Positions 16,529 through 36,511 of a DNA stretch of 38,090 bases are shown here, in pieces. Numbering within the stretch: the stretch's first letter is position 1; every line of letters begins with the position of its first letter. Origin of the DNA: Flavobacteriales bacterium (GTDB lineage: Bacteria; Bacteroidota; Bacteroidia; Palsa-965). Both the position numbers and the translations under genes were made by a program. The notes beneath the pieces are model-generated. The model was not told the DNA's origin. It did no database searches and saw only the letters and a list, made by a program, of their open reading frames with translations. The stretch is taken from NCBI GenBank assembly GCA_002737665.1, contig NSIF01000013.1, positions 1 to 38,090 on the forward strand, read 5' to 3'.

Positions 16529-16909
16529 TTAATCAGCTTCTTCAATCATTTTGAATGGCACTGCAATTATTGCTTGATAATCTTCGCCTGCTTCGAGCAT
16601 GTCTTCATCGTCTTGCTCGTAATGCCAGTTGATGATAGTTGCATTTCCTGCTTTATGTATTGCTTCTAGTTTTTTGAAAATATCAAGAATACATTTTGAC
16701 GAACTTGTGTTAAAATATTCAAGTTGAATTTTAACATTAGTATTTGCTTGGGGCTTTGCCGCATAGCGATCCAAAAGTTCTACTATTGGCTTGTAGAATT
16801 CGATTGAGTTTTCAGGGATAGATCGCCCCTTTATTTCAAGATGACCTGTTGCTATATCGAAATTTATAGTTGGTGTTTTTGGAGTTCCCTCAATTGTGAT
16901 GCCTTCCAT
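16529..16909 (-). CDS. SiaC family regulatory phosphoprotein (DUF1987-like)
   Basis: A 126-residue protein that I recognise as the SiaC/DUF1987 family: MEGITIEGTPKTPTINFD at the start, the GRSIPENSIEFYKPIVELLDRY block (about 28-49), VKIQLEYFNTSSSKCILDIF (59-78) and a C-terminal NWHYEQDDEDMLEAGEDY (about 93-110). In Pseudomonas aeruginosa, SiaC is phosphorylated by SiaB and dephosphorylated by SiaA; the unphosphorylated form activates the diguanylate cyclase SiaD. The known phospho-site is Thr68. Here Thr68 in FNTSSSK falls at the same number, so the site appears conserved. It lies 52 bases after the kinase-like gene, across a 14-base triplicate repeat. No diguanylate cyclase is encoded in this window. 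Confidence 0.85.
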   Translation of the reverse strand: MEGITIEGTPKTPTINFDIATGHLEIKGRSIPENSIEFYKPIVELLDRYAAKPQANTNVKIQLEYFNTSSSKCILDIFKKLEAIHKAGNATIINWHYEQDDEDMLEAGEDYQAIIAVPFKMIEEAD

Positions 16910-16921
16910 AGTTATGGTATT

Positions 16922-16963
16922 TATTGTTTTGTTTTTATTGTTTTATTTTTATTGTTTTGTTTT
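16922..16963. repeat. Three tandem copies of a 14-base unit between siaB and siaC
   Basis: TATTGTTTTGTTTT, TATTGTTTTATTTT and TATTGTTTTGTTTT follow head to tail, differing at one base. They fill the gap between the two genes and overlap the siaB-like stop codon. In mRNA sense the block is A-rich and includes the region just upstream of the siaC-like start, so copy number would change the intergenic distance. Confidence 0.9.
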
Positions 16964-17534
16964 ATTGTGGAGTTATCTTAATATTTAAACTGAAAAATGA
17001 ATACATATCATCAATGGGCATAAAATTGTATTTCAATTTTTGACCAGTTTTACGTGCAATGTCAATCATACCTAAGCCACCACCACCTTTTGCAGACATT
17101 TGACCGTTATTGAGCACAGCTTTATAATAATCTTTCAGTTCTTCTTTTGAAAGTTTATTTATTTCGTCTAATCGAGTTTGCAATACTTCTACATTTTTTG
17201 AAAGAATGTAATTACCCGTTACAATATTATACTCATTATCCATTTTACCTATCATAAAAATAGCAGAACGAATATTCTCACCAGTTCCGGTTGTAATAGA
17301 TATTCCGTTTAATGATCGTGGAATTTCGTCCATGTGATGGTAAAGGTTTTGCAAACATTCAACCAGCACATTATAAACCTTCTTCTTCGTCTTTGGTTGC
17401 TCTTGCATGGTGTCTAACTTAGACTCCATTATTTGTAATATAGATGTAAGTAACTCTGCAGTTATATCGCCTTTAAAGGAGAGCATAATGTTATTACGCT
17501 CCATCTTATCGTAAAAATCGTATATGTCAACCAT
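16962..17534 (-). CDS. SiaB-like protein kinase (DUF6272 family)
   Basis: A 190-residue cytoplasmic protein resembling the SiaB family, GHKL-type kinases that phosphorylate SiaC. The ATP-lid-like blocks visible are VYNVLVECLQNLYHH (53-67; Glu59 and Asn63 match an N-box) and the glycine-rich GGGGLGMIDIARKTGQ (about 152-167). It also has a FKGDITAELLTSILQIMESKL helix near the N-terminus. The pair with the downstream SiaC-like gene repeats the Pseudomonas siaBC order. A promoter of Bacteroidota type lies 37 bases upstream of the ATG and a strong terminator follows siaC, so the two form their own transcription unit. The assignment rests on recalled family features and on the neighbour. Confidence 0.82.
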   Translation of the reverse strand: MVDIYDFYDKMERNNIMLSFKGDITAELLTSILQIMESKLDTMQEQPKTKKKVYNVLVECLQNLYHHMDEIPRSLNGISITTGTGENIRSAIFMIGKMDNEYNIVTGNYILSKNVEVLQTRLDEINKLSKEELKDYYKAVLNNGQMSAKGGGGLGMIDIARKTGQKLKYNFMPIDDMYSFFSLNIKITPQ

Positions 17535-22863: not shown

Positions 22864-25800
22864 ATGCCGAGTCGCATCGTTTTTATTTCAGTAATTACTT
22901 TTTTTTGCGTCTTTAAGTTGTTTGCACAGCAGGGAATACATGGTCCTAAGGTTGTTACTTCAGCTAATACAATTGTGAATGAATACACATCAATAACAGC
23001 TTATGTTCCTGCTGGAAGTACTACGTTACCTGTTGCGGCAAGTTCTCTAAATGCAAACAATAGATTTGCAGGTCCGCTTGTGCCTGGCGATTTGATAATG
23101 ATTTATCAAGTTCAAGGAGCCATCATCAAAGATATTTGGAGCGCACCAAACCCTGATACCACCTGGGGAAAAATTGTTACTAGCGGTGATTATTATAGTA
23201 CAGGGAGGTATGAATTTCATCAAGTTTCCGCTGTTCCCAATTCAACTTCTATTGTTATCAATTGCGCCACAACTTATGACTATATTCCTAATGGCGCAAC
23301 AGCTCGTAAGCCAATGGTGATTAGGGTTCCTCGTTATACTACATTAACAATTAATTCTGCTGGCGTTTTAACTTGTGATGATTGGGCTGGAACTCTTGGT
23401 GGTGTACTTGCTGTGGAAGTGCAAGGAAATACTGTAATAAATGCAGGTGGATTAATTGATTTGAATGGCAAAGGTTTTCGTGGTGGCTCTTTGGTTGGCG
23501 ATAATAACACTCAATTTGGTTCCAATACTAATGCGTCAACAAATAGTTTTTTAGGGGCTGAAAAGGGTGAAGGTGTTGCCGGTTATCAGGCAGAGTATGA
23601 TGCTTTTGGTGGCCGATATTGCAGAGCGCCAGGTGCAAATGGCGGCGGCGGTGGTTGTGCTCATAATGGCGGCGGCGGCGGTGGTGCTAATGGTCCTAAT
23701 AGTTCAAGTAATTCTGCGTATTGGAGTGGAAATGGAATTCCAGACCAAACAACACCGGGATGGACTACTGCATGGAATCTTGAAGCACCAATGAATACAA
23801 TGTCTCTTCGAACTTCGTTGAATTCAGCTGGAGGTGGACGAGGTGGTTACAGTTTTTCCTCAGCTAATTTAAATGCTTTAACTGTTGGTCCAAGCAATGC
23901 AAGTTGGGGCGGGGATTATCGAAATAGTTTGGCAACAGGTTTAGGCGGTCGTCCATTAGATTACAGTACAGGAAGATTATTTTTTGGGGGTGGAGGTGGT
24001 GCTGGAGATCAGAATAATTTAGGTGGCGGTGTTGGTGGAGATGGTGGTGGTTTATGTTATTTGATGGTTTTTGGTGGGATTGCTGGCAGTGGCACTATTT
24101 CAGCTAATGGTTTGAATGGCGCAAACGGTCAAGGAGGTTCAGGTCTAATTACAGGAATTGATGGTGCTGGTGGAGGAGGTGCTGGTGGGACTGTAATTTT
24201 AAATGCCGTAACAGGTGTTGCCAACACAATTACTCTGAATGCAAATGGAGGAAATGGTGGTAATCAAGTTATTAATTTGACCTTATCCACAAATGAAGGA
24301 GAGGGTCCTGGCGGTGGTGGTAGCGGTGGTTACATTGCAATATCATCCGGCACGCCAGTAAGAAATTCAAATGGCGGATTAAACGGGACAACGAATTCCG
24401 CAGGATTAACAGAATTTATTCCAAATGGAGCAACTAAAGGTTGCCCTGGAACAAATAACGCTACAATTACAAATTTTACAATAAACGTTTCGAATATTAC
24501 TATTTGTGTAAATAATTCAGTCACTCTTACTGCAACTTTGGGAGGTTCGCCACCAGCTAACACTACAATTTATTGGTATGCTGCTGCAGTTGGCGGGAAC
24601 CCAATTTTTACTGGACCTTCATACACTACACCAGCACTTACCCTAAGCACTACGTATTGGGTTGCTACTTGTCCAGGTTGGTGGCGTGTTCCTTTAATTG
24701 TTACAGTGTCAACTGCTCCTACTGTTACAGCAAGTGCAAGTTTAAGCTCAATTTGTATTGGTAGTTCAACAACATTAACTGGTGCTGGTGCAATTACGTA
24801 TTCTTGGAATCCGGGGAATTTAGTTGGTGCTTCTGTTGTTGTTTCACCAGCCGTAACAACTACTTATACGGTAACGGGTACAGTTGTTTTAGGTTGTACT
24901 AACACTGCTACTATAACAATTACTGTAAATCCAATACCTACTGTTACCGCATCTGCATCTCCAAGTCCGATTTGTAATGGTGGTTCTTCCACACTTACAG
25001 GTGTTGGCGCAACATCCTATGTTTGGAATCCTGGAAATATACCTGGATCGCCAATTGTAATCTCACCAACGGCAACAACAACGTATACTGTAACGGGCAC
25101 ATCGTTGGGTTGTTCAAACACTGCTCAAGTAACTGTTGTTGTAAATGCTGGACCAACTGTGACTGCAATTGCTGCACCTTCAGCAATATGTGCTGGCGGA
25201 TCTAGTATTCTTACTGGAGGTGGAGCAGCAACTTATGTTTGGAATCCTGGAAATATAATTGGTGCCTCAATTACAGTTAGTCCATTAACAACCACTACTT
25301 ACACCGTTACTGGCACAGCTTCTAATGGTTGTATAAACACACAACAAGTTACAGTTACAGTGAACCCACTTCCAGTTGTTACTGCAACGGCTACAAGCCC
25401 AATTATTTGTTTGGGAGCATCTACTGTACTTACCGGAGGTGGAGCCGCAACTTATGTTTGGAATCCTGGAAATATAATTGGCGCCTCAGTAACAGTAAGT
25501 CCAATAGCAACAACAACTTATACCGTAACCGGTACAGCTTCCAATGGTTGTGTAAATACACAACAAGTAACAGTTACTGTCAATCCTCTTCCTATTGTTA
25601 CCGCAACAGCTTCTAGTCCAAGTATTTGTTTAGGGAGTTCCGTTTCTTTAACCGGAGGAGGTGCCGCAACTTATGTTTGGAATCCGGGTAACATCAGTGG
25701 TTCTCCAATTTTAGTCTCACCTACAGCAACCACAACCTATACCGTAACAGGAACTGATGCTTTTGGTTGCACCAGCACTTCTCAAGTGATTGTTGTTGTA

Positions 25801-27909
25801 AATTCATTACCAATGCCAACTGCAATAGCTACTCCATTATCAATTTGTATTGGACAAAGCGTTTCGCTTGTGGCGAGTGGTGGTGTAACTTACACGTGGA
25901 ATGGAGGAAATTTGATAAATGCAACAGGTGTTTCACAAACAGATTTTCCTAACACGACATCAAGTTACATTGTGAACGTGACAGACATTAATGGCTGTAC
26001 AGCAACTGCACAGGTTACTGTAAACGTCAATCCATTACCAATTGTAAATGCAGGTATAGATCAAACAATTTGTTCAGGAAATGCAGCAACAATTGTTGCA
26101 TCAGGGGGTGGAACATATTTATGGAATGGCGGTTCATTAGTTAATGTTCCTGGTGCTAGTCAAACTGTTTTACCCACAAATACTACAACCTATATTGTCA
26201 ATGTTACTGATGTTAATGGATGTGTTAATTCAGACTCCGTTAATATTTTTGTAAATCCAAATCCGACAACTGCTGCCGGTCCCGATGTTTCTATTTGTCC
26301 AAATAGTTCTTGTCAACTTCTTGCAACTGGCGCTATTAGTTATTTATGGAGTCCTTCACTGGGTTTAAATTTTACAAATATCCCTAATCCAATTGCTAAT
26401 CCATTGGTGACAACTGTTTATGTCGTTACTGGAACAAATTCTGCAGGTTGTACATTTAGTGATACAATTATTGTTACTGTTTCCAATATACTTTCAGTTT
26501 ATGCTGGAGCTGATGTTTCAATTTGTTTAGGCGACAGTGTGCTGCTAAGTACTTCTGGAGGTGTTTTCTATAGCTGGACACCTGCTATTTCTTTACAAAC
26601 ACCAGCAAGTTCATCTACCAACGCATTTCCTACTGCTACAACAACTTATACGGTTCAGGTCACTGATTCGAATAGTTGTTCAGGAATAGATTCTGTTACA
26701 GTTTTTGTAAACCCTGCAGTTTTTATTTCTGTTTCCGGCAACGCTTCAATTTGCGCAGGACAATCTGCTACGCTAACTGCTAATCCAACTGGAGGAACAG
26801 CTCCTTATAACTTTAATTGGAGTAACAATTTAATAGGAGCAGGCCCACATCTTGTTGTTCCAATAACTACAACCACTTATACTGTATCTGTAACTGATTC
26901 ATTGGGATGCACTACGCCTTCGCAAAGTATTTTGGTAACGGTTAATCCGCTGCCAATTCTCGTCATTCAATCATTTTCTAATGTATCATGTTATAATGGT
27001 ACCGATGGTACAGCAACAGTACTTGCTTCAGGTGGTAATCCTCCATTTACTTATGCTTGGACTCCTGTTGGTGGAAATGCTTCTACTGCGAGTGGATTGA
27101 GTGTTGGTTCTTATACCGTTACTGTCACAAGTATTGATGGTTGTATTGAAACACAATCAGTAATTTTAACACAGCCAACAGCTATTTTGCTTACAAATGT
27201 GAGTGTTAATGAAAATTGCATCAATGCAGATGGAAGTGCTAGTGTTGCTGCTAGTGGTGGAAATCCAGGATATACTTATCTCTGGAGTAATTTATCGACG
27301 AATGATTCAATTACAAATTTAACTTCTGGAAATTATTCTGTTACAGTAACGGACGCGAATGGTTGCACAGCTTTAGCAAATGTTAGCGTTGGTAATTCAA
27401 GTACAGTCAATGCAGATGCGGGAATAGCTGTTACAATTATTGCAGGTCAAACCACGGTGTTAAACGGAACAGGTGGAGTAAATTATTCTTGGTCACCACC
27501 CTCCACATTAAGTTGCACAAATTGTCAAAATCCAATTGCTTCACCAACCGTAACCACTACCTATACGGTAACAGTTTCCGATGCATTTGGATGTTTTGAA
27601 ACTGACACGGTTACTGTTTTTGTTGATATTTTATGTGGTGAATTATTTATTCCAAATGCATTTTCTCCAAATGGTGATAATGCAAATGATACTTTTTATG
27701 TTCGAAGTAATTGTATAAAATACATGGATTTTCAGATTTACAATCGTTGGGGTGAAAAGGTATTTTATTCCAATGATCAAGCAAAGGGATGGGATGGCAT
27801 TTGGCGTGGTGAACCTTGTGAATCAGCAACATTTACCTATTTTATGAGTGCTTTGCTTTTGGATGGATCATCGGTGAAAAAACAAGGAACAATTTCGTTA
27901 GTTAAATAA
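22864..27909 (+). CDS. Giant repeat adhesin with type B T9SS C-terminal domain
   Basis: A 1681-residue surface protein. A signal peptide ends near LFAQQ (22). Residues about 23-230 form an unassigned beta-rich region. A glycine-rich region (about 230-520) with runs of five or six Gly follows. An Ig-like domain (about 536-618) leads into roughly ten tandem Ig-like repeats of 70-78 residues, each with an SICxGxS start, a YxWNPGN core and a TTTYTVTGT end. Two SprB-type repeats follow (about 1365-1510; SCYNGTDGTATVLASGGNPP and a diverged copy). The last 90 residues are the gliding-motility-associated type B CTD: FIPNAFSPNGDNANDTF, then FQIYNRWGEKVFYSND. It should cross the outer membrane through T9SS. 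The next gene, seven bases on, is a PorP/SprF protein, the usual partner of this CTD class. Confidence 0.93.
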   Translation: MPSRIVFISVITFFCVFKLFAQQGIHGPKVVTSANTIVNEYTSITAYVPAGSTTLPVAASSLNANNRFAGPLVPGDLIMIYQVQGAIIKDIWSAPNPDTTWGKIVTSGDYYSTGRYEFHQVSAVPNSTSIVINCATTYDYIPNGATARKPMVIRVPRYTTLTINSAGVLTCDDWAGTLGGVLAVEVQGNTVINAGGLIDLNGKGFRGGSLVGDNNTQFGSNTNASTNSFLGAEKGEGVAGYQAEYDAFGGRYCRAPGANGGGGGCAHNGGGGGGANGPNSSSNSAYWSGNGIPDQTTPGWTTAWNLEAPMNTMSLRTSLNSAGGGRGGYSFSSANLNALTVGPSNASWGGDYRNSLATGLGGRPLDYSTGRLFFGGGGGAGDQNNLGGGVGGDGGGLCYLMVFGGIAGSGTISANGLNGANGQGGSGLITGIDGAGGGGAGGTVILNAVTGVANTITLNANGGNGGNQVINLTLSTNEGEGPGGGGSGGYIAISSGTPVRNSNGGLNGTTNSAGLTEFIPNGATKGCPGTNNATITNFTINVSNITICVNNSVTLTATLGGSPPANTTIYWYAAAVGGNPIFTGPSYTTPALTLSTTYWVATCPGWWRVPLIVTVSTAPTVTASASLSSICIGSSTTLTGAGAITYSWNPGNLVGASVVVSPAVTTTYTVTGTVVLGCTNTATITITVNPIPTVTASASPSPICNGGSSTLTGVGATSYVWNPGNIPGSPIVISPTATTTYTVTGTSLGCSNTAQVTVVVNAGPTVTAIAAPSAICAGGSSILTGGGAATYVWNPGNIIGASITVSPLTTTTYTVTGTASNGCINTQQVTVTVNPLPVVTATATSPIICLGASTVLTGGGAATYVWNPGNIIGASVTVSPIATTTYTVTGTASNGCVNTQQVTVTVNPLPIVTATASSPSICLGSSVSLTGGGAATYVWNPGNISGSPILVSPTATTTYTVTGTDAFGCTSTSQVIVVVNSLPMPTAIATPLSICIGQSVSLVASGGVTYTWNGGNLINATGVSQTDFPNTTSSYIVNVTDINGCTATAQVTVNVNPLPIVNAGIDQTICSGNAATIVASGGGTYLWNGGSLVNVPGASQTVLPTNTTTYIVNVTDVNGCVNSDSVNIFVNPNPTTAAGPDVSICPNSSCQLLATGAISYLWSPSLGLNFTNIPNPIANPLVTTVYVVTGTNSAGCTFSDTIIVTVSNILSVYAGADVSICLGDSVLLSTSGGVFYSWTPAISLQTPASSSTNAFPTATTTYTVQVTDSNSCSGIDSVTVFVNPAVFISVSGNASICAGQSATLTANPTGGTAPYNFNWSNNLIGAGPHLVVPITTTTYTVSVTDSLGCTTPSQSILVTVNPLPILVIQSFSNVSCYNGTDGTATVLASGGNPPFTYAWTPVGGNASTASGLSVGSYTVTVTSIDGCIETQSVILTQPTAILLTNVSVNENCINADGSASVAASGGNPGYTYLWSNLSTNDSITNLTSGNYSVTVTDANGCTALANVSVGNSSTVNADAGIAVTIIAGQTTVLNGTGGVNYSWSPPSTLSCTNCQNPIASPTVTTTYTVTVSDAFGCFETDTVTVFVDILCGELFIPNAFSPNGDNANDTFYVRSNCIKYMDFQIYNRWGEKVFYSNDQAKGWDGIWRGEPCESATFTYFMSALLLDGSSVKKQGTISLVK
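23639..23687 (+). repeat. GGC/GGT triplet tracts encoding poly-glycine in the adhesin
   Basis: Two short tracts of GGC and GGT codons encode five and six glycines, separated by CAHN. Gains or losses of whole triplets would change loop length without shifting the frame. Other Gly-rich runs occur at about 23985-24060 and 24160-24190. Confidence 0.7.
24715..26940 (+). repeat. Tandem Ig-like repeat array at DNA level
   Basis: Units of roughly 215-235 bases repeat in frame. The closest pair shares an identical 35-base stretch starting at about 25229 and 25448 (within the codons for ATYVWNPGNIIG), with further near-identity on both sides. A third copy at about 25665 is more diverged. Such similarity permits recombination between units and changes in repeat number. 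Confidence 0.85.
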
Positions 27910-27916
27910 GTATGAA

Positions 27917-28942
27917 ATGAAGAGTAAAAAACTTTATTTAATTGTAGCTTTAGTTTGTGTTTTAGGTTTAGATTTTTTGTCTGGGCAGGATGTTCATTTT
28001 TCTCAATTGACGGAGACGCCTTTGTTACTTAATCCAGCCGAGGCGGGACTCATTCATAATTTTAGTGGAATTATAAATTTTAAGGACCAGTGGAAAAGTG
28101 TAAGTGGTAGCCCATTCAGAACTTTTAATGTGAGCGCTGATATGGCCTTTCTTAAAAAAAATAAAGGGACTCATCTTGGTGCAGGCATTAATATTTTTTC
28201 TGATAAAGCAGGTGTTGGCCAAATGGGAAATACTTTCGGTTCATTGCATCTCTCTGGTATTCTTGCAGTAAATAGTCGCAATTTAGTTTCTGTCGGACTT
28301 TATGGTGGCATGGGACAGCGAAGCTTGAATTATGATAAGCTTTATTGGGACAAGCAATATGACGGAATGACTTTCGACGCATCACGACCTACTTTCGAGC
28401 CTACAACTTTTGGGAATTACACCTATTCAGATTTTGGTCTTGGCCTTGCCTATTTTTATGGTAAGGATCATAAAACGATAAGTTCTAATAATGGGTTAAA
28501 TTTTAATTTAGGACTTTCTCTACAGCATTTGAATCAACCTTTTTATAGCTTTTATGGTACTAGCGATCAAATTTTACCTATGAAGTTTGTTGCACATGGT
28601 AACGCTGCTATAGGATTACAAAATCGAAATCTGATTTTAGAGCCGAGTTATCTTGTTATGATTCAAGGTGGAGGTCATGAAATTAATGCCGGTATGTTAT
28701 TTAAATACGTCATGCAAGATGCCTCAGTTTATACTGGAAGGAAAAAAGTGGGTGCTTTTATTTTAGGCGGATATTACAGGTTGGGAGATGCTGTTGTACT
28801 GGCAACTGGTTATGAATTTTCTGGCTATCGCATTGGAATGAGCTACGATGTTAATTTATCCGATTTGAAAACGGCAAGTAAAACTCGTGGTGGATTCGAA
28901 ATTTCACTTCGATTCACTTCAGAAAGTGCTAAGGGTTTATAG
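27917..28942 (+). CDS. PorP/SprF family T9SS outer-membrane protein (first copy)
   Basis: A 341-residue protein with a signal peptide (MKSKKLYLIVALVCVLGLDFLSG) and the family opening QDVHFSQLTETPLLLNPAEAGL. It is followed by a beta-barrel pattern with many short amphipathic strands and a LGLSLQHLNQPFYSF block near residue 205. PorP/SprF proteins are needed to secrete and anchor T9SS proteins with type B CTDs; in Flavobacterium johnsoniae SprF serves the adhesin SprB. It starts seven bases after the giant adhesin and is probably its dedicated partner. No gene follows for 256 bases. Confidence 0.92.
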   Translation: MKSKKLYLIVALVCVLGLDFLSGQDVHFSQLTETPLLLNPAEAGLIHNFSGIINFKDQWKSVSGSPFRTFNVSADMAFLKKNKGTHLGAGINIFSDKAGVGQMGNTFGSLHLSGILAVNSRNLVSVGLYGGMGQRSLNYDKLYWDKQYDGMTFDASRPTFEPTTFGNYTYSDFGLGLAYFYGKDHKTISSNNGLNFNLGLSLQHLNQPFYSFYGTSDQILPMKFVAHGNAAIGLQNRNLILEPSYLVMIQGGGHEINAGMLFKYVMQDASVYTGRKKVGAFILGGYYRLGDAVVLATGYEFSGYRIGMSYDVNLSDLKTASKTRGGFEISLRFTSESAKGL

Positions 28943-29198: not shown

Positions 29199-29729
29199 AT
29201 GAAGCGGAAATTATTTTATTGTATTTTATGTATTTTCCCCGTTTTGTTGGGTTTTCAAACATCTTTTGAGGCGGATGCAAATGTGCGGCTTAAGTCTGTA
29301 TTTATTTATAATTTCACTCGTTACATAGATTGGCCTTCAGATTATAAAACAGGGAGCTTTGTAATTGCCTATTTTGGTAAAAGTTCTAAGGTTATTGCAG
29401 AATTAAATAAAATGGCATTATCAAAAACAGTAGGCACTCAAAAAATTGAAATTCGAATAGTTACCAAACTTTCTGAAATAGGTAAAGCTAATATCCTTTA
29501 TGTAAGTCCTGACGTTGAAACACCGCTTGTTGACATTATCAAGACCACTAAAGGAAAATCGATTTTAGTTGTAACGGAGAACATTGGTTTTGCAAAAAAA
29601 GGAGCTACAATAAATTTCGTAATTGTTGATAACAGACAAAAATTTGAATTGAACCAAGCGAATGCAGAAAAAAACCATCTTAAAGTAAGTTCATCTTTAT
29701 TGGCTTTAGCAATACCAGTAACAAATTAA
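29199..29729 (+). CDS. YfiR family periplasmic protein (DUF4154)
   Basis: A 176-residue protein with a signal peptide (about 1-27). The family block follows at once: DANVRLKSVFIYNFTRYIDWPSDYKTGSFVIAYFGKS. Later blocks are ANILYVSPD (near 105), KSILVVTENIGFAKKGATINFVI (about 124-146) and LNQANAEKNHLKVSSSLLALA at the end. In Pseudomonas, YfiR sits in the periplasm and holds the diguanylate cyclase YfiN inactive. The mature part has no cysteine, so disulphide-based control as in Pseudomonas YfiR is not available. It heads a three-gene operon (TPR protein 6 bases on, then a HAMP-PP2C phosphatase). The membrane phosphatase is therefore a plausible partner in place of YfiN (inference). Confidence 0.88.
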   Translation: MKRKLFYCILCIFPVLLGFQTSFEADANVRLKSVFIYNFTRYIDWPSDYKTGSFVIAYFGKSSKVIAELNKMALSKTVGTQKIEIRIVTKLSEIGKANILYVSPDVETPLVDIIKTTKGKSILVVTENIGFAKKGATINFVIVDNRQKFELNQANAEKNHLKVSSSLLALAIPVTN

Positions 29730-29735
29730 CATACC

Positions 29736-30647
29736 ATGGAAAAGTATAAATTATATAATCTTCGGTTTCTGTTTTTTCTACTACTAATTTTGATTTGTAG
29801 TCCGATTGTGAATGCGCAAAGTTCTGTCATTCATTACGATGCTGCGTTGAATTATATGCAAAAAAATAATGTAGATAGTGCAAAGATTGAGATTGACCTA
29901 CACATGCAAAATGTTGACGTGCAACTCGATCCTGAAAATTGGTATTTGGAGGGATTTATTTATAAAGAGCTTTATAAAAAGTATGAAAATGAAAACTTCA
30001 ATTCTCCCTACCGTGATAAATCGTTGAATTCATTTAAAAAATCGTTTAAGCTTGATACTGTTATTGCTCGGACTAAAACCACGAAAGAGCTTATTCGTTA
30101 TTTAGCTGGTCGCTTTTACAATGATGCTGTTTTAACACTTGATTCATTGAATTATTTAACTTCTATTCTTTGCTATGAGCAATATCGTGACGCAGCACTT
30201 ATTTTGGATTCCATTTTAGATATTAAGAAAAAAGACATCGAATTTTATCTTGCTTTGGGAACCATCTATGTTGAGATTTATAATTCCGATAAAATTAAAA
30301 ATCTTCAATTTTTTAATTTAACGCGCGATACATATATGAAAATATTGAATTGGGATCCGAATAATTATGCAGCTAATTACGATCTTGGTTTATTGTATTG
30401 GAATAAAGGTGTTCATTTGATGAATAACATTGATTACGAATTAAACCTCGATAGCGTTATGCAAGTCCAAAATTATTCCGTTAGTATTTTTAAAGAATCC
30501 CTCCCTTTTGCACAAAAAGCTTATGAAATGGAACCTAAGCGTGAAGAAACATTGATTGTGCTATCTGGAATATTTTATAGTCTCAATGATTTTCCGAAGT
30601 CAAAAGCTTTTGACGCAATACTTAAGGACCTTCAGAAGGAGAAATAA
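29736..30647 (+). CDS. Exported tetratricopeptide-repeat protein
   Basis: A 303-residue protein with a hydrophobic N-terminal segment ending near IVNAQ (28), probably a cleaved signal. The rest is helical with TPR-like units: SVIHYDAALNYMQKNNVDSAKIEID (about 29-54), DAALILDSILDIKKKDIEFYLALGTIYVEIY (about 152-182), NYAANYDLGLLYWNKGVHLM (about 209-228) and a C-terminal RIETLIVLSGIFYSL-like repeat (near 270-285). It probably acts in the periplasm as a protein-binding scaffold. It lies between the YfiR-like gene (6 bases) and the HAMP-PP2C gene (27 bases), which suggests it connects the two in one signalling complex (inference). The individual repeats are diverged and I cannot name a family. Confidence 0.78.
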   Translation: MEKYKLYNLRFLFFLLLILICSPIVNAQSSVIHYDAALNYMQKNNVDSAKIEIDLHMQNVDVQLDPENWYLEGFIYKELYKKYENENFNSPYRDKSLNSFKKSFKLDTVIARTKTTKELIRYLAGRFYNDAVLTLDSLNYLTSILCYEQYRDAALILDSILDIKKKDIEFYLALGTIYVEIYNSDKIKNLQFFNLTRDTYMKILNWDPNNYAANYDLGLLYWNKGVHLMNNIDYELNLDSVMQVQNYSVSIFKESLPFAQKAYEMEPKREETLIVLSGIFYSLNDFPKSKAFDAILKDLQKEK

Positions 30648-30674
30648 TAAAATTTAAAATAGAGATTCTGATTT

Positions 30675-32462
30675 ATGGGTTTTCGTTTTACAATTGGTCG
30701 TAAAATTCTTATTGGGTTTAGTGTACTTATATTTTTAGTACTACTTGCTTTTTCGTTAACGTTGATTACCATTCGAAAAAGCCGTGAAATCAACGATAAA
30801 ATTACAAATTTATATAACCCATCTGTTTCTGCTTTGCAGGATATGTACGTTCTGGTTTTGCAATCCAATACCTTAATAAATAACTGGATTAATACGCCTG
30901 CTTCCAGTAGCGATAAACCCAAATTGAAATTTTTGATAAAATTCGACTATCCATCACAACGAAGGATTATTGATACACTTTCAAAAGGTTGGTCTCAAGG
31001 AGATCGCCAGCTTTGTGATTCTATTTTTAATGATTGTGACAGATTGTGGGTTTTGGATAGGGATGTGATGGTTAATTTGGATAATGTGGATGGCTACAAT
31101 GATGCTTCTATTTTCCTTCTTTGTCAGTCAGATGTATTGGATAATGATGGAGTAATTAAGGTTAAGATAAATACGATATTAAATAATTTAAATAATTTAA
31201 TAAGTATTCAAAACGAGGCAGCCCATGAAAAACGTAACGAAATGTTGGCGTCTTTCAAGACGTTATCAATGGCGGTAATGTTATTGTTGATTGTGCTACC
31301 GCTTGGCGGACTTTTAATTGCATTTCTAACTGCACGAACGATTACCAAACCTATTAAATTTCTTAAGAATATTTTACTTTCAATGGCGCGAGGCGTTCTT
31401 CCAGAAGCGCAAAAAATAGAAAGTAATGATGAGGTTGGAGAAATGTCAGTTGCGCTCAATAGCTTGGTTGATTCTATGAAGTTGACAACTGAATTTGCAG
31501 GTGAGGTGGGAGCAGGGAACTTTGAATCATACTACCAACTGCTCTCTGAACAAGATACTCTTGGCCAAGCACTCTTAAAAATGAGAGGGGAACTTCGTGA
31601 AAATGAAAGAGTGTTGGAAGCTAAAGTTATTGAACGAACGGAGCAGGTGGTGCGTCAAAAAGAAGAGATTGAATTACAGAATCAAAAGCTTGAAATTGTT
31701 TACAAACACATCACCGATAGTATTCGTTACGCTAAACGCTTGCAGGATGCAATTCTTCCACCTATAAGTTTTGTGAATCGCTTACTTCCTGAATCTTTTA
31801 TTTTATTTAAGCCAAAGGATATTGTATCGGGCGATTTTTATTGGTTGTTTGAAAATAAAAACAGGATTTATCTTGCTGCGGTTGATTGTACAGGTCACGG
31901 TGTACCTGGCGCTTTCATGAGTATCGTTGGTAATAATATGTTGAATCAAATTGTAAAAGAAAATCCTGAAATAAATGCAGGACAATTGCTCGATGAATTA
32001 AACATAATGGCCGGGAAAACTATTAACCAGAATGCAGATGAAACGGCTGTTCGTGATGGTATGGATATGACGCTTTGTATTTTGGATACCGATACAAAAA
32101 TTATGGATATGGCAGGTGCAAATAATTCACTCTATCATTATCGTAATTCAGTTTTGAAAGAATATAAAGCGGATAAAATTCCAATCGGTTTTGTAGAAGG
32201 AAATTCGAAGCATTTTACGAATCACCGTATTGCCCTAGAAAAAGGAGATACTATTTATTTATATACAGATGGGTATGCCGATCAGTTTGGTGGACCTAAA
32301 GGAAAAAAATTCATGGTTGAAAAATTTAGAACTTTTCTTAACACCATTCATCCATTGCCTCTTTTGGAACAATATTTAAAATTAGATTCTTCCCTTGAAA
32401 GTTGGAAAGGTGATTTAGAACAAGTTGATGATATTCTTGTCATTGGCTTTAGGGTAAACTAA
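30675..32462 (+). CDS. Membrane HAMP-PP2C (SpoIIE-type) phosphatase, SiaA-like
   Basis: A 595-residue sensor phosphatase. TM1 is about 9-33, an extracytoplasmic helical domain covers 34-195, and TM2 is about 197-220. A HAMP domain follows (RTITKPIKFLKNILLSMARG, with DEVGEM at 252-257). A coiled coil spans about 305-345 (ERVLEAKVIERTEQVVRQKE). The PP2C domain runs from about 350 to the end: DSIRYAKRLQDAILPP, the metal ligands Asp387 in DIVSGDFYW and Asp404 in AVDCTGHGVPGAFMS, then LYTDGYADQFGG and QVDDILVIGF. The architecture matches SiaA of Pseudomonas, which dephosphorylates SiaC. A SiaB/SiaC-like pair lies 13 kb upstream. YfiR-like and TPR proteins precede it in the same operon. That it acts on the local SiaC is inference. 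Confidence 0.9.
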   Translation: MGFRFTIGRKILIGFSVLIFLVLLAFSLTLITIRKSREINDKITNLYNPSVSALQDMYVLVLQSNTLINNWINTPASSSDKPKLKFLIKFDYPSQRRIIDTLSKGWSQGDRQLCDSIFNDCDRLWVLDRDVMVNLDNVDGYNDASIFLLCQSDVLDNDGVIKVKINTILNNLNNLISIQNEAAHEKRNEMLASFKTLSMAVMLLLIVLPLGGLLIAFLTARTITKPIKFLKNILLSMARGVLPEAQKIESNDEVGEMSVALNSLVDSMKLTTEFAGEVGAGNFESYYQLLSEQDTLGQALLKMRGELRENERVLEAKVIERTEQVVRQKEEIELQNQKLEIVYKHITDSIRYAKRLQDAILPPISFVNRLLPESFILFKPKDIVSGDFYWLFENKNRIYLAAVDCTGHGVPGAFMSIVGNNMLNQIVKENPEINAGQLLDELNIMAGKTINQNADETAVRDGMDMTLCILDTDTKIMDMAGANNSLYHYRNSVLKEYKADKIPIGFVEGNSKHFTNHRIALEKGDTIYLYTDGYADQFGGPKGKKFMVEKFRTFLNTIHPLPLLEQYLKLDSSLESWKGDLEQVDDILVIGFRVN

Positions 32463-32862: not shown

Positions 32863-34785
32863 ATGAAAAAAGTAATTTTATTGATTGCTATCCTCTTGGT
32901 AGATTTTGGTTTTGTTGCTGCACAAGCGCCTCAAGGAATAAATTACCAGGCGGTTGCTCGTGGAACTACAGGATTAGAATTACAGCTTACACCCTTGGTT
33001 GTCCGTTTAGGAATTTATTCTGATTTAAATGCTACTATTCAGGTTTATGAAGAATCGCATGCTGTAACTACCAATGCATTTGGTTTGTTTAATGTAGTTA
33101 TTGGGCAGGGAACACAAATTTCCCCTACGGCTTTCAATACCATTTCATGGGGCACAGGATCATATTTTTTGAAAGTTGAAATTGATGGTGGTACTGGATT
33201 TACCAATATGGGAACTACTCAGTTATTATCAGTCCCTTACGCATTGTTTGCACAAAATTCTGCCAATGGTCCAACCGGTTTACAAGGACCAACTGGTGCT
33301 ATTGGAGCAACAGGACCAGTTTCTACAGTCGCAGGACCAACTGGTCCTGCCGGAATTAACGGATTAAATGGTGCAACAGGTTTAATTGGACCAACAGGTG
33401 CGGCTTCTACTGTTGCAGGTCCAACCGGCCCAGCTGGAATAAATGGATTAAATGGTGCTACAGGTGCGACGGGTTTAACTGGTTTAACTGGCGCAACAGG
33501 TATTCAAGGTATAACAGGTGCTACTGGAATAAACGGATTAAATGGTGCTACAGGTGCTACTGGTTTAACTGGCGCTACTGGTATTCAAGGAGTAACAGGT
33601 GCGACTGGTGTTACTGGTGTTCAAGGTTTAACCGGCGCTACGGGCTTGACTGGTGTTACTGGTATTCAAGGTGTAACAGGTGCTACTGGAATAACAGGTC
33701 TTCAAGGAGTAATAGGAGCAACAGGAGTAACAGGAGTAACAGGAGCAACTGGTACACCTGGATCACTCAGTGCATGGGGCTTAACTGGAACTACAGGTAC
33801 AGTTGATGGCGTCAATTTTTTTGGTACAGCGGATTTTGTCCCACTTAACTTTAGAGTGAATAACTTAAAAGCAGGAAGAATAGACATTCCTACATGGAGT
33901 ACATTTTTTGGTTATGAAGCAGGTAATGTAACTACAGGATTACATAATACAGCATTTGGGGATTGGTCTCTACTTTTTAATACCACAGGTGCTGACAATA
34001 CTTCTGTTGGAGTAACCGCACTTCAATCAAACACTACAGGTAGTAAGAATACTGCTGTAGGAAAGAATGCACTTCAAACAAACACTACAGGTAGTAACAA
34101 TACTGCTATCGGAAATGGCGCAGGGGTTTCTAGCGGGGCGCTCACTAACGCAACTGCAATTGGTAATAATGCTGTAGTAGGGGCAAGTAACAGTTTGGTT
34201 TTGGGAGATAACGCAAATGTTGGTATAGGAACAAGCATACCTACTGCAAAATTAGAAATAGCGGGTCAAATAAAAATTACAGGTGGAAATCCAGGTGCAG
34301 GTAAAGTTTTGGTGTCGGATGCGAATGGTTTGGCTCAATGGGCCAACATTACAGATAAGATTGCATTTCATGCGGGTACTAACCCAAATGCCAATCCTCA
34401 ATCTATTTCTGCCAATGTCATAACAACCGTCGCTTTTGGTCAAGGAATTAATTGGTTTAATCATGGACTGGGTTACAATACTGCCAATTATTCTTTTACC
34501 CCACCTGTACCAGGTACCTATCAATTAAATGCACATGTTTCATATTTTAACGCTCCGGCTAATACTCCAATTACAATTACAATCAGAACAGCAGGTGGAT
34601 TTGCTGCGAGAGAAATTAACACTAGTCCTCCTACTGGTAGTGGTGTTTTGCAATTAAGCACCATTATAAATTCCGCTATTTCACAAGGACCTTATTGGGT
34701 TGAGGTTAATATTATTGCCACAAGTGGGATGTCGATTGCTCCATACGACAGTCATTTTTCCGGGTGCTTGCTCTATAAAAATTAA
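32863..34785 (+). CDS. Exported collagen-like protein with a C-terminal C1q-like domain
   Basis: A 640-residue protein in five parts. A signal peptide ends near VAAQ (21). An N-terminal Bacteroidota domain (about 22-132) begins [13 protein letters not shown] and ends [15 protein letters not shown]-x-y collagen-like tract runs from about 136 to 300, mostly GAT, GLT, GPT and GIQ triplets, with two identical STVA interruptions. A YadA-head-like hexapeptide region (about 355-455) repeats NTAxG and NTTGSxNTA. The last 140 residues look like a C1q/TNF-type beta-sandwich: [20 protein letters not shown] (543-562) and a C-terminal [10 protein letters not shown]. Collagen and C1q parts both favour a trimer. 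No type A or B T9SS CTD is visible. The next three genes follow within 16 bases each. Confidence 0.88.
33268..33765 (+). repeat. Collagen-type triplet-codon repeat tract
   Basis: Nine-base units encoding Gly-x-Thr or Gly-x-y recur through about 500 bases. The two blocks beginning with the STVA interruption and running through [16 protein letters not shown] (about 33326-33386 and 33407-33467) are near-identical duplicates. Repeat-number change would stay in frame. Confidence 0.85.
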
Positions 34786-35575: not shown

Positions 35576-36511
35576 ATGAAAATGAAAATAGTTGTATTGT
35601 TTATTCTTTCTGTTTTTGCCACATTAAAAGTGACAGATTTATTTGCACAGCAAGATCCACAATTTTCTCAATACATGTTTAACCCACTTTATGTTAATCC
35701 TGCTTATGCGGGAAGCCGAGGTGTTGTTAATGGGGCACTTGCATATAGAAAGCAATGGATTGGTTTTGATGGTGCACCTTCAACAATGGCTTTTGCTGTT
35801 AACATGCCATCCAAAAAAGGAAAAGTAGGAATCGGTTTTGAAGTGTTTAATGATAAAATTGGTCCGAAAACTACAACTGGTGCAATGGTAGATTATGCTT
35901 ACCGCATTCCACTTGGAAAGGGGAAATTAGCTTTTGGATTAGGCGCAGGCCTCATGTCATTCAATGTGAACTGGGACGAGGTTACTTATAAAGATGGTGC
36001 TGACAGTTACAACCAACTTGGTGTTGTTAAAATTACTAAGCCGGATTTTAAATTTGGCATTTATTATAATTCTAAGAAATTTTATACGGGCATATCATTT
36101 ACGCATTTGAATCAGGAAGTTTATTCGGTAACGCAAGATTCTTTAATGTTCACTGCAATAATGAGTAGGCATTCTTACATAACAGTAGGAAGGGCATTTC
36201 AAATAGCAGATAATGTTGTTTTCAGTCCTTCTATCATGTTTCGTAATTCGGGAAATAATTTAGGCAATAATGTTGATTTGAATTTAAACTTTAAATTGAG
36301 GGATGTGCTTTGGGTTGGATTGACAATACGATCCAATAAATGCCTTGTTGCGTTGGTACAATACAGTATTACCAATCACCTTAAGCTGGGTTATTCATTT
36401 GATATGAGTGGAACTCGTCTTGCTACTTATAACTCTGGCACGCATGAAATAGTACTTGCCTTTGACTTGAATATTTTTCAATCCAAAGTTCTTTCACCTC
36501 GTTTCTTTTAA
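35576..36511 (+). CDS. PorP/SprF family T9SS outer-membrane protein (second copy)
   Basis: A 311-residue protein with a signal peptide ending at LFAQ (25) and the typical QQDPQFSQYMFNPLYVNPAYAGSRG opening, followed by YRKQWIGFDGAP (about 59-70) and a GVGIGFEVFNDKIGP-like strand. This copy is closer to the family pattern than the one at 27917. It lies 12 bases after the type B cargo gene and 16 bases before a PorE-like gene, the arrangement expected for a cargo-specific secretion and anchoring set. Two of its later blocks, SFTHLNQEVYS and LVALVQYSITNHLKLGYSFDMS, support the barrel assignment. Confidence 0.94.
   Translation: MKMKIVVLFILSVFATLKVTDLFAQQDPQFSQYMFNPLYVNPAYAGSRGVVNGALAYRKQWIGFDGAPSTMAFAVNMPSKKGKVGIGFEVFNDKIGPKTTTGAMVDYAYRIPLGKGKLAFGLGAGLMSFNVNWDEVTYKDGADSYNQLGVVKITKPDFKFGIYYNSKKFYTGISFTHLNQEVYSVTQDSLMFTAIMSRHSYITVGRAFQIADNVVFSPSIMFRNSGNNLGNNVDLNLNFKLRDVLWVGLTIRSNKCLVALVQYSITNHLKLGYSFDMSGTRLATYNSGTHEIVLAFDLNIFQSKVLSPRFF

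Follow-up and report, generated by a model that had tools for sequence, protein, structure and literature searches.

A conserved YfiR-TPR-HAMP/PP2C gene triad in Bacteroidota and its possible role as an envelope switch

YfiR is a periplasmic brake on c-di-GMP synthesis, and its occurrence in an operon with a membrane-bound phosphatase raises the question as to what it controls there. Such an operon lies at 29199-32462 on the forward strand of a 38,090-nucleotide stretch from a Flavobacteriales bacterium (contig NSIF01000013.1; hereafter the window). An earlier note had assigned to it a YfiR-family protein, a TPR protein that is exported, and a HAMP/PP2C membrane protein, and the open reading frames and Pfam matches bear this out; gaps of 6 bp (YfiR/TPR) and 27 bp (TPR/phosphatase) separate the genes. 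The SiaB/SiaC pair that the note placed 13 kb away is present, but it lies about 11.7 kb from the YfiR gene and on the opposite strand.

29199..29729, forward: YfiR/HmsC-like (DUF4154) gene, 176 aa (ORF, Pfam, NCBIfam)
29736..30647, forward: TPR protein gene, 303 aa (ORF, Pfam)
30675..32462, forward: membrane phosphatase gene, 595 aa (TM1, periplasmic sensor, TM2, HAMP, predicted helical linker, SiaA-type PP2C)
30774..31259, forward: periplasmic sensor, phosphatase residues 34-195, predicted four-helix bundle of chemoreceptor type
31326..31478, forward: HAMP domain, phosphatase residues 218-268 (Pfam)
31860..32456, forward: SpoIIE/PP2C catalytic domain, phosphatase residues 396-594 (Pfam, profile comparison)
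16529..16909, reverse: SiaC, candidate substrate, Thr68 in an NTSS motif (Pfam, NCBIfam)
16962..17534, reverse: SiaB-family kinase (DUF6272), candidate SiaC kinase (Pfam, NCBIfam)

Genes for surface proteins flank the operon in the window.

Conservation of the gene order

The genes stay together in relatives, as the earlier note had anticipated. In a class survey of 395 genomes, from which 100 loci were fetched besides those of the window's own family, the order YfiR-TPR-sensor(-PP2C) is found in 98 of the 100 (95 complete, and three in which the contig stops behind the sensor); it is also present in 11 own-family genomes and in one further genome (G045). Counting the window, the triad occurs at 110 loci that span 23 families, its genes separated by small gaps, and the arrangement is therefore not due to chance. 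The full-length TPR family accompanies the triad in 98 of the 100 class loci.

A few loci depart from this order. At L063 and L065, YfiR adjoins the same sensor type, with PP2C output and in divergent arrangement, and at L095 it lies 18 bp from a sensor-GAF-PAS protein (sensor E 3e-24); the triad TPR gene is absent from all three. L287 has a triad-type sensor and no YfiR in its 6.5-kb stretch, and L181 has YfiR and TPR without the PP2C. No natural fusions of YfiR, TPR or PP2C were found in 161 loci read from stop to stop; at L213 a 524-aa TPR reading frame, which runs across YfiR in a different frame, was taken as an artefact of ORF calling. L108, with YfiR and PP2C-SiaB-SiaC within 17 kb, was not accepted as a tight operon, as three other reading frames intervene. 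The Pfam tallies of YfiR neighbours omit L086-L090, L108 and L114 downstream, and L075-L077, L081, L086-L088, L090 and L108 upstream.

Another explanation would be that this is simply an envelope housekeeping operon, in which YfiR and the PP2C are co-transcribed and share no pathway. The surface-protein neighbours in the window would fit this. However, the order persists with small gaps over all 110 loci and 23 families, and YfiR is described in PMC3375315 as acting on a HAMP-type membrane protein; we consider a housekeeping operon very improbable.

YfiR, the TPR protein and the sensor

The first gene product matches PF13689 (YfiR/HmsC-like) at E 1.7e-34, with 119.4 bits against a cut-off of 24.9, and scores 112.3 bits with the TOL_0243-type YfiR-like NCBIfam model, under its cut-off of 125. 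A profile built from 40 YfiRs finds the solved YfiR 4zhu (E 5.3e-13); a narrower 12-row profile of triad YfiRs does not recover it, and its best match (E 0.51) is to another protein. The N-terminus is hydrophobic, as judged by hydropathy only, with no cysteine following, and the protein is a putative periplasmic regulator. The middle gene product has a TPR_19 match (E 9.9e-07), no OmpA match in Pfam, and an N-terminus resembling a signal sequence, with no lipobox apparent by eye.

The earlier note had likened the topology of the membrane protein to that of YfiN. The layout (TM-periplasm-TM-HAMP) supports this, but the sensor is of another type. Among 58 triad-type sensors, 43 match the Pfam family 4HB_MCP_1 at E<=1, and CHASE8 is absent among the 25 of 87 families listed for them. 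A profile comparison of triad sensors with those of YfiR-linked kinases gave 2.8%, and an AAhxF pattern occurs in one of the 58 triad-type sensors versus seven of 19 kinase sensors. The full-length phosphatase model was poor (pLDDT 44.7, from a two-row alignment), and the sensor was therefore modelled alone (pLDDT 74.9). A fold search with this model returned nothing at E<=0.001; four-helix sensors rank first (best E 0.013), and the matches further include ClyA, designed proteins and similar helical bundles of no relation. The predicted sensor thus looks like a chemoreceptor four-helix bundle and not like the CHASE8/PAS domain of YfiN. Because the sensor is not YfiN-like and the AAVVF-type motif is rare, the mode of YfiR contact cannot be borrowed from YfiN.

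A bundle sensor could nonetheless engage a periplasmic partner. The fold list includes 5xsj, in which a bundle sensor is complexed with another protein (XylFII-LytSN), as our model proposes, although the structural match is weak (E 0.2); XylFII is a periplasmic substrate-binding protein acting with the histidine kinase LytS. On the YfiR side, the hydrophobic patch for partner binding was read by hand from the alignment of the 40-YfiR profile: Phe162 lands on F149, which is kept in at least 90% of 12 triad YfiRs, but Phe151 lands on I138. By a crude pattern, only about 55 of the 110 triad YfiRs have a Phe at the patch position.

In another reading the TPR protein touches the sensor and YfiR does not. 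YfiR would then bind either this protein or a small ligand, and its sole effect would be on how much TPR protein is left free; the constancy of the full-length TPR family in the triad and the scarcity of YfiN's YfiR-binding motif in triad sensors are consistent with this. Nonetheless, at L063, L065 and L095 YfiR is paired with the same sensor type without the triad TPR protein, and for this reason we regard TPR contact as unlikely.

Phosphatase output and a possible link to SiaC

Within the phosphatase, Pfam recognizes HAMP (E 1.6e-05) and SpoIIE (E 3.4e-20). The SiaA-like output proposed earlier is supported: the best solved relative in a profile search with the PP2C domain is 6k4e at E 1.4e-52 (SpoIIE, E 6.7e-06), and 6k4e is the PP2C domain of SiaA (PMC7647112). 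The SiaA NCBIfam model scores 225.7 bits, below its equivalog cut-off of 700, with its best stretch at residues 292-594; a second SiaA-model stretch also passes in the full-length protein. Scanned alone, the window sensor does not match SiaA at E<=1, nor does SiaA appear among the 25 of 53 families listed for the 58 sensors.

According to PMC7647112, T68 of SiaC is the site acted on by SiaA and SiaB. The NTSS motif of the window SiaC starts at residue 67, and Thr68 is thus retained. All 110 triad genomes carry SiaC, versus 101 of 285 others, in a count that ignores phylogeny. At L187, L191 and L193, SiaB-SiaC lies directly upstream of the triad on the same strand, and the 13 kb fetched at L187 contain no PP2C besides that of the triad; these contiguous loci represent three of five triads in one family (f61), and the L191 SiaC reads in two frames.

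The earlier note had envisaged a full circuit from YfiR and TPR through the PP2C to SiaC. Genome co-occurrence and the three contiguous loci favor it, but a private PP2C-SiaC pair is doubtful, because a different PP2C of about 1100 aa (one in pieces) lies upstream in 11 of 20 fetched window-type SiaBC loci; at L259 it comprises Reg_prop, Y_Y_Y and SpoIIE domains. It is further weakened because SiaC lies within about 6 kb on each side of only seven of 98 class triads (the NTSS pattern is missing in four) and genomes of the window's order carry 5-42 SpoIIE-type PP2Cs, with 1-6 SiaC copies. The same envelope switch may instead serve another phosphoprotein, such as a paralogue of SiaC or one of the small STAS proteins, with the window-type SiaC served by an adjacent PP2C in relatives, or by many phosphatases as a hub. 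STAS proteins, which are possible PP2C substrates, occur in 11 of 12 own-order genomes (with frames of 118 and 145 codons in the window's own genome). The SiaA substrate-loop pattern does not discriminate: it is present in 93 of 102 triad PP2Cs and 12 of 13 SiaBC-adjacent PP2Cs, and was ruled out as proof of SiaC specificity by its presence in 21 of 35 other PP2Cs. A tree of PP2C domains (45 of the 102 triad domains drawn at random, plus all others) was uninformative; neither the triad nor the SiaBC-adjacent set forms a clade. Weighing against another substrate, nine of the 20 SiaBC loci and the window have no PP2C beside SiaBC, SiaBC and the triad are contiguous in three genomes, and no triad genome lacks SiaC. 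We consider another substrate a serious if doubtful possibility.

A search for GGDEF domains found none in 12 own-order genomes or in 42 further triad genomes (the window's own genome is 66.6% complete), and accordingly no SiaD-type diguanylate cyclase among the 12. Signals that the triad receives from the envelope are probably relayed to protein phosphorylation and not to c-di-GMP. As to the specific route, we put at about even chances a three-protein envelope switch acting via YfiR, the sensor, the PP2C and SiaC. The TPR protein would present or withhold YfiR in the periplasm; YfiR would dock on the four-helix-bundle sensor, and the bundle state would pass through HAMP to the PP2C, with a sign of regulation that we infer. 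SiaB would phosphorylate SiaC and the triad PP2C would remove the phosphate from Thr68, and unphosphorylated SiaC may then act on a target other than a diguanylate cyclase.

Comparison with known systems

The comparison draws on PMC7647112, PMC4655355 and PMC3375315. Like YfiBNR of Pseudomonas aeruginosa, the triad combines in one operon a gene of the YfiR family and one for a signalling protein of TM-periplasm-TM-HAMP layout. Unlike YfiBNR, it has a sensor resembling a four-helix bundle where YfiN has CHASE8/PAS with AAVVF, and a TPR protein where YfiBNR has YfiB, an OmpA-like lipoprotein; no GGDEF was found in the 54 genomes searched. The earlier note knew of no system of this composition. 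Swapping of Yfi outputs is itself already known, with histidine-kinase, HPT, MCP and GGDEF-EAL variants described, but PP2C does not figure among those listed in the portions of PMC3375315 consulted. None of the papers searched joins YfiR with PP2C or SpoIIE, or with a histidine kinase, TonB-dependent receptor and HAMP, and none treats SpoIIE and partner switching in Bacteroidetes; of two that mention YfiR and Bacteroidetes, the one listed concerns tube microbiomes.

SiaABCD of P. aeruginosa (PMC7647112) likewise has a two-TM HAMP phosphatase with a SiaA-type PP2C, together with a SiaB kinase and a SiaC bearing Thr68. The triad differs in that the sensor alone has no SiaA model match, the window phosphatase is outside the siaB-siaC operon, no SiaD-type cyclase was found, and YfiR and TPR are added. 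In other Bacteroidota, YfiR likewise adjoins a HAMP receptor at TonB-dependent receptor-YfiR-CHASE8 histidine kinase loci, but these have a histidine-kinase output, a CHASE8 sensor, the TonB receptor upstream and no TPR gene between.

We tentatively suggest, at slightly less than even confidence, that the triad represents a widespread class of envelope signalling. In this class YfiR, once paired with PAS-type sensors, would have been transferred to chemoreceptor-type ones, a serine/threonine phosphatase would have taken the place of c-di-GMP or two-component outputs, and the signal would reach, without c-di-GMP, a SiaC hub that several phosphatases read. The triad is compact and easily deleted, and the predictions for SiaC Thr68 are clear. 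If this is true, YfiR would be a general periplasmic adaptor, coupled here to a protein phosphatase through another sensor type, and an input would have been found for the large sets of SpoIIE-type phosphatases in these genomes.

The triad and its conservation

The three ORFs of the YfiR-TPR-HAMP/PP2C operon (hereafter the triad) lie where the earlier note had placed them, as confirmed by ORF reading; a SiaB/SiaC pair matched by family models lies on the opposite strand.

29199-29729, + strand, YfiR/DUF4154 protein (119.4 bits against a cut-off of 24.9)
29736-30647, + strand, TPR protein with a signal-sequence-like N-terminus
30675-32462, + strand, sensor-HAMP-SpoIIE/PP2C protein with two hydrophobic segments
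16529-17534, strand opposite to the triad, SiaC and SiaB

The triad genes are separated by 6 bp (YfiR/TPR) and 27 bp (TPR/phosphatase). The phosphatase profile matches 6k4e, the SiaA PP2C domain (PMC7647112), at 1.4e-52 versus 6.7e-06 for SpoIIE, and the window sensor scanned alone has no SiaA match. PP2C acidic motifs, sought with five loose patterns of which one is trivial, are present in 107 to 108 of 108 fetched sensor-PP2C proteins, two of them from outside triads.

Within the window's own order (12 genomes, all of one family), PF13689 is matched in 11, each with a triad; the exception, G398, is 72% complete. At E<=0.001 the TPR profile A3 hits 334 of the 395 genomes surveyed in the class, because TPR repeats are promiscuous. 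We fetched 100 further class regions, each from a different genome, at the listed TPR-profile matches with E values up to 1.7e-40, and read them by six-frame stop-to-stop search. The YfiR-TPR-sensor-PP2C order is complete in 95 and runs into a contig edge after the sensor in 3 more, so that the gene order for which the earlier note had proposed a survey is kept at 98 of 100 loci; the remaining two are a YfiR-TPR pair without PP2C (L181) and a locus with a different TPR gene (L258). With 11 own-family loci and one in genome G045, the total is 110 triads in 23 families, with median spacings of 5 bases between the final codon of YfiR and the base where the TPR profile match begins, and of 25 from TPR to sensor. 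YfiR occurs in 152 of the 395 class genomes, 110 of which carry the triad.

In the window, a collagen-like surface protein is encoded downstream (32863-34785), with genes for type IX secretion adhesin (Ig_7, SprB, CHU_C) and PorP/SprF proteins on either side of the triad (22864-28942 and 35576-36511). Proteins with an INYQA.AR-type start are encoded within 4.5 kb downstream of 19/110 triads and 0/49 non-triad YfiR loci, the latter mostly from other classes. A divergent sigma-70-family gene adjoins 19/110 triads upstream (L161:4803-5390 included, the one copy scanned with Pfam), with a possible anti-sigma partner beside it at nine.

Pairing of YfiR with the sensor

Yfi outputs are described as modular, with histidine kinases, HPT, GGDEF-EAL and MCP named; in the portion of that source available to us a phosphatase is not among them, and the YfiR-YfiN PAS/HAMP core is treated as the constant part (PMC3375315). 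The triad differs from the Yfi systems described there in both output and sensor, and our literature search found no paper coupling YfiR with PP2C or SpoIIE.

YfiR is present in 39 of 395 genomes of the phylum sample. Among hand-chosen neighbors of non-triad YfiR genes, with some loci omitted, a TonB plug domain is found in 25/34 upstream, and histidine-kinase domains (27), CHASE8 (22) and DUF4154 itself (5) in 35 downstream; TonB receptor-YfiR-CHASE8 kinase is therefore a common module, from which the triad is distinct. In L103 to L107 the YfiR domain lies within ORFs of 646 to 793 aa, apparently histidine-kinase fusions, as judged from a pooled domain tally.

Three loci stand between this module and the triad. 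In L063:4239-8820 and L065:8309-12630, a TonB-dependent receptor-YfiR pair adjoins a divergent PP2C with a triad-type sensor (E ~1.5e-32); in L095:8062-10578, the gene 18 bp downstream of YfiR encodes a membrane protein that combines a triad-type sensor (E 3e-24) with HAMP and GAF-PAS, the last replacing PP2C as a third kind of output for this pairing. YfiR and the triad-type sensor therefore go together without the TPR protein, although L287 is a counter-case, with a triad-type sensor and no YfiR within the 6.5 kb fetched.

We compared 58 triad-type sensors, those of L063 and L065 included. At E<=1, 43 match 4HB_MCP_1 (best 1.6e-07), and 14 match TarH among the best 25 of 87 families; the window sensor's match to 4HB_MCP_1 is weak (0.0059) and below the cut-off. 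Profile comparison with the sensors of YfiR-linked kinases gives 2.8% probability. A model of the window sensor built from a two-row alignment shows four long helices (pLDDT 74.9); Foldseek returned no match at E<=0.001, its list being headed by the four-helix sensors 4k0d, MCP2201, Tar, LytS and NarQ, intermixed with unrelated bundles.

YfiR or the TPR protein may contact a four-helix bundle, with HAMP transmitting the signal and the TPR protein perhaps standing in for YfiB or a TonB receptor. That the TPR protein rather than YfiR touches the sensor seems unlikely, its odds being lowered by L095, where YfiR accompanies the sensor in the absence of a triad TPR gene. For contact by YfiR, the reported site on YfiN, AAVVF (PMC3375315), has the form AAhxF in 7/19 kinase sensors versus 1/58 triad-type sensors. 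By hand alignment, Pseudomonas aeruginosa YfiR Phe162 falls on window F149, kept at ≥90% in 12 triad YfiRs, and Phe151 falls on I138; by a crude pattern, Phe is found at the YfiR motif in only ~55/110 triads. The YfiR surface that would be used in triads is therefore uncertain from these alignments.

The link to SiaC

SiaA and SiaB target Thr68 of SiaC (PMC7647112). Window SiaC has T68 within NTSS and aligns at 8e-21 to solved DUF1987 chains, among them 6k4f, which is SiaC (PMC7647112); its phosphorylated T68 would be the substrate of the triad PP2C. The earlier note had suggested that triad and SiaB/SiaC could form one full circuit and had proposed a survey of their co-occurrence. With the window SiaC as query, SiaC is found in 211/395 class genomes, comprising 110/110 with the triad versus 101/285 without (Fisher p 1.2e-38, uncorrected for phylogeny). 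SiaC is also present in 30/42 YfiR genomes lacking the triad.

SiaC lies within the fetched stretch at 7/98 class triads. Three of these (L187, L191 and L193, from the five triads of family f61) have SiaB-SiaC-YfiR-TPR-PP2C on one strand with window-type SiaC, L193 having a second PP2C upstream of SiaB; at L183, L184, L241 and L161 a SiaC without NTSS lies 3 to 4.3 kb away. Triad and SiaC also lie on one contig, 19 to 20 kb apart, in two genomes from the genus of the window (G395 and G399).

Other phosphatases accompany SiaC, too. Among 20 fetched window-type SiaBC loci, 11 have a PP2C upstream and nine have none; this PP2C is of ~1,100 aa (L259:2269-7736 and 10 further loci of L259 to L278), with Reg_prop/Y_Y_Y/SpoIIE in the one scanned (L259), and is accompanied by a protein of ~273 aa whose N-terminus resembles that of a lipoprotein and whose L259 copy has no Pfam match. 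The 12 own-order genomes encode 5 to 42 SpoIIE-type PP2Cs and 1 to 6 SiaCs each, a many-to-few phosphatase network, and 11 have STAS matches. Neither loop pattern nor tree separates the triad and SiaBC-adjacent PP2C sets from other PP2Cs. The PP2Cs at SiaBC, these gene numbers, STAS, loop pattern and tree all argue against a private triad-SiaC pair.

GGDEF was matched in 0/12 own-order genomes (11 with the triad) and 0/42 further triad genomes, versus 8/14 control genomes; the SiaC target would therefore be other than SiaD. A fair reading is that SiaC is a hub served by several phosphatases, one of them controlled by YfiR/TPR.
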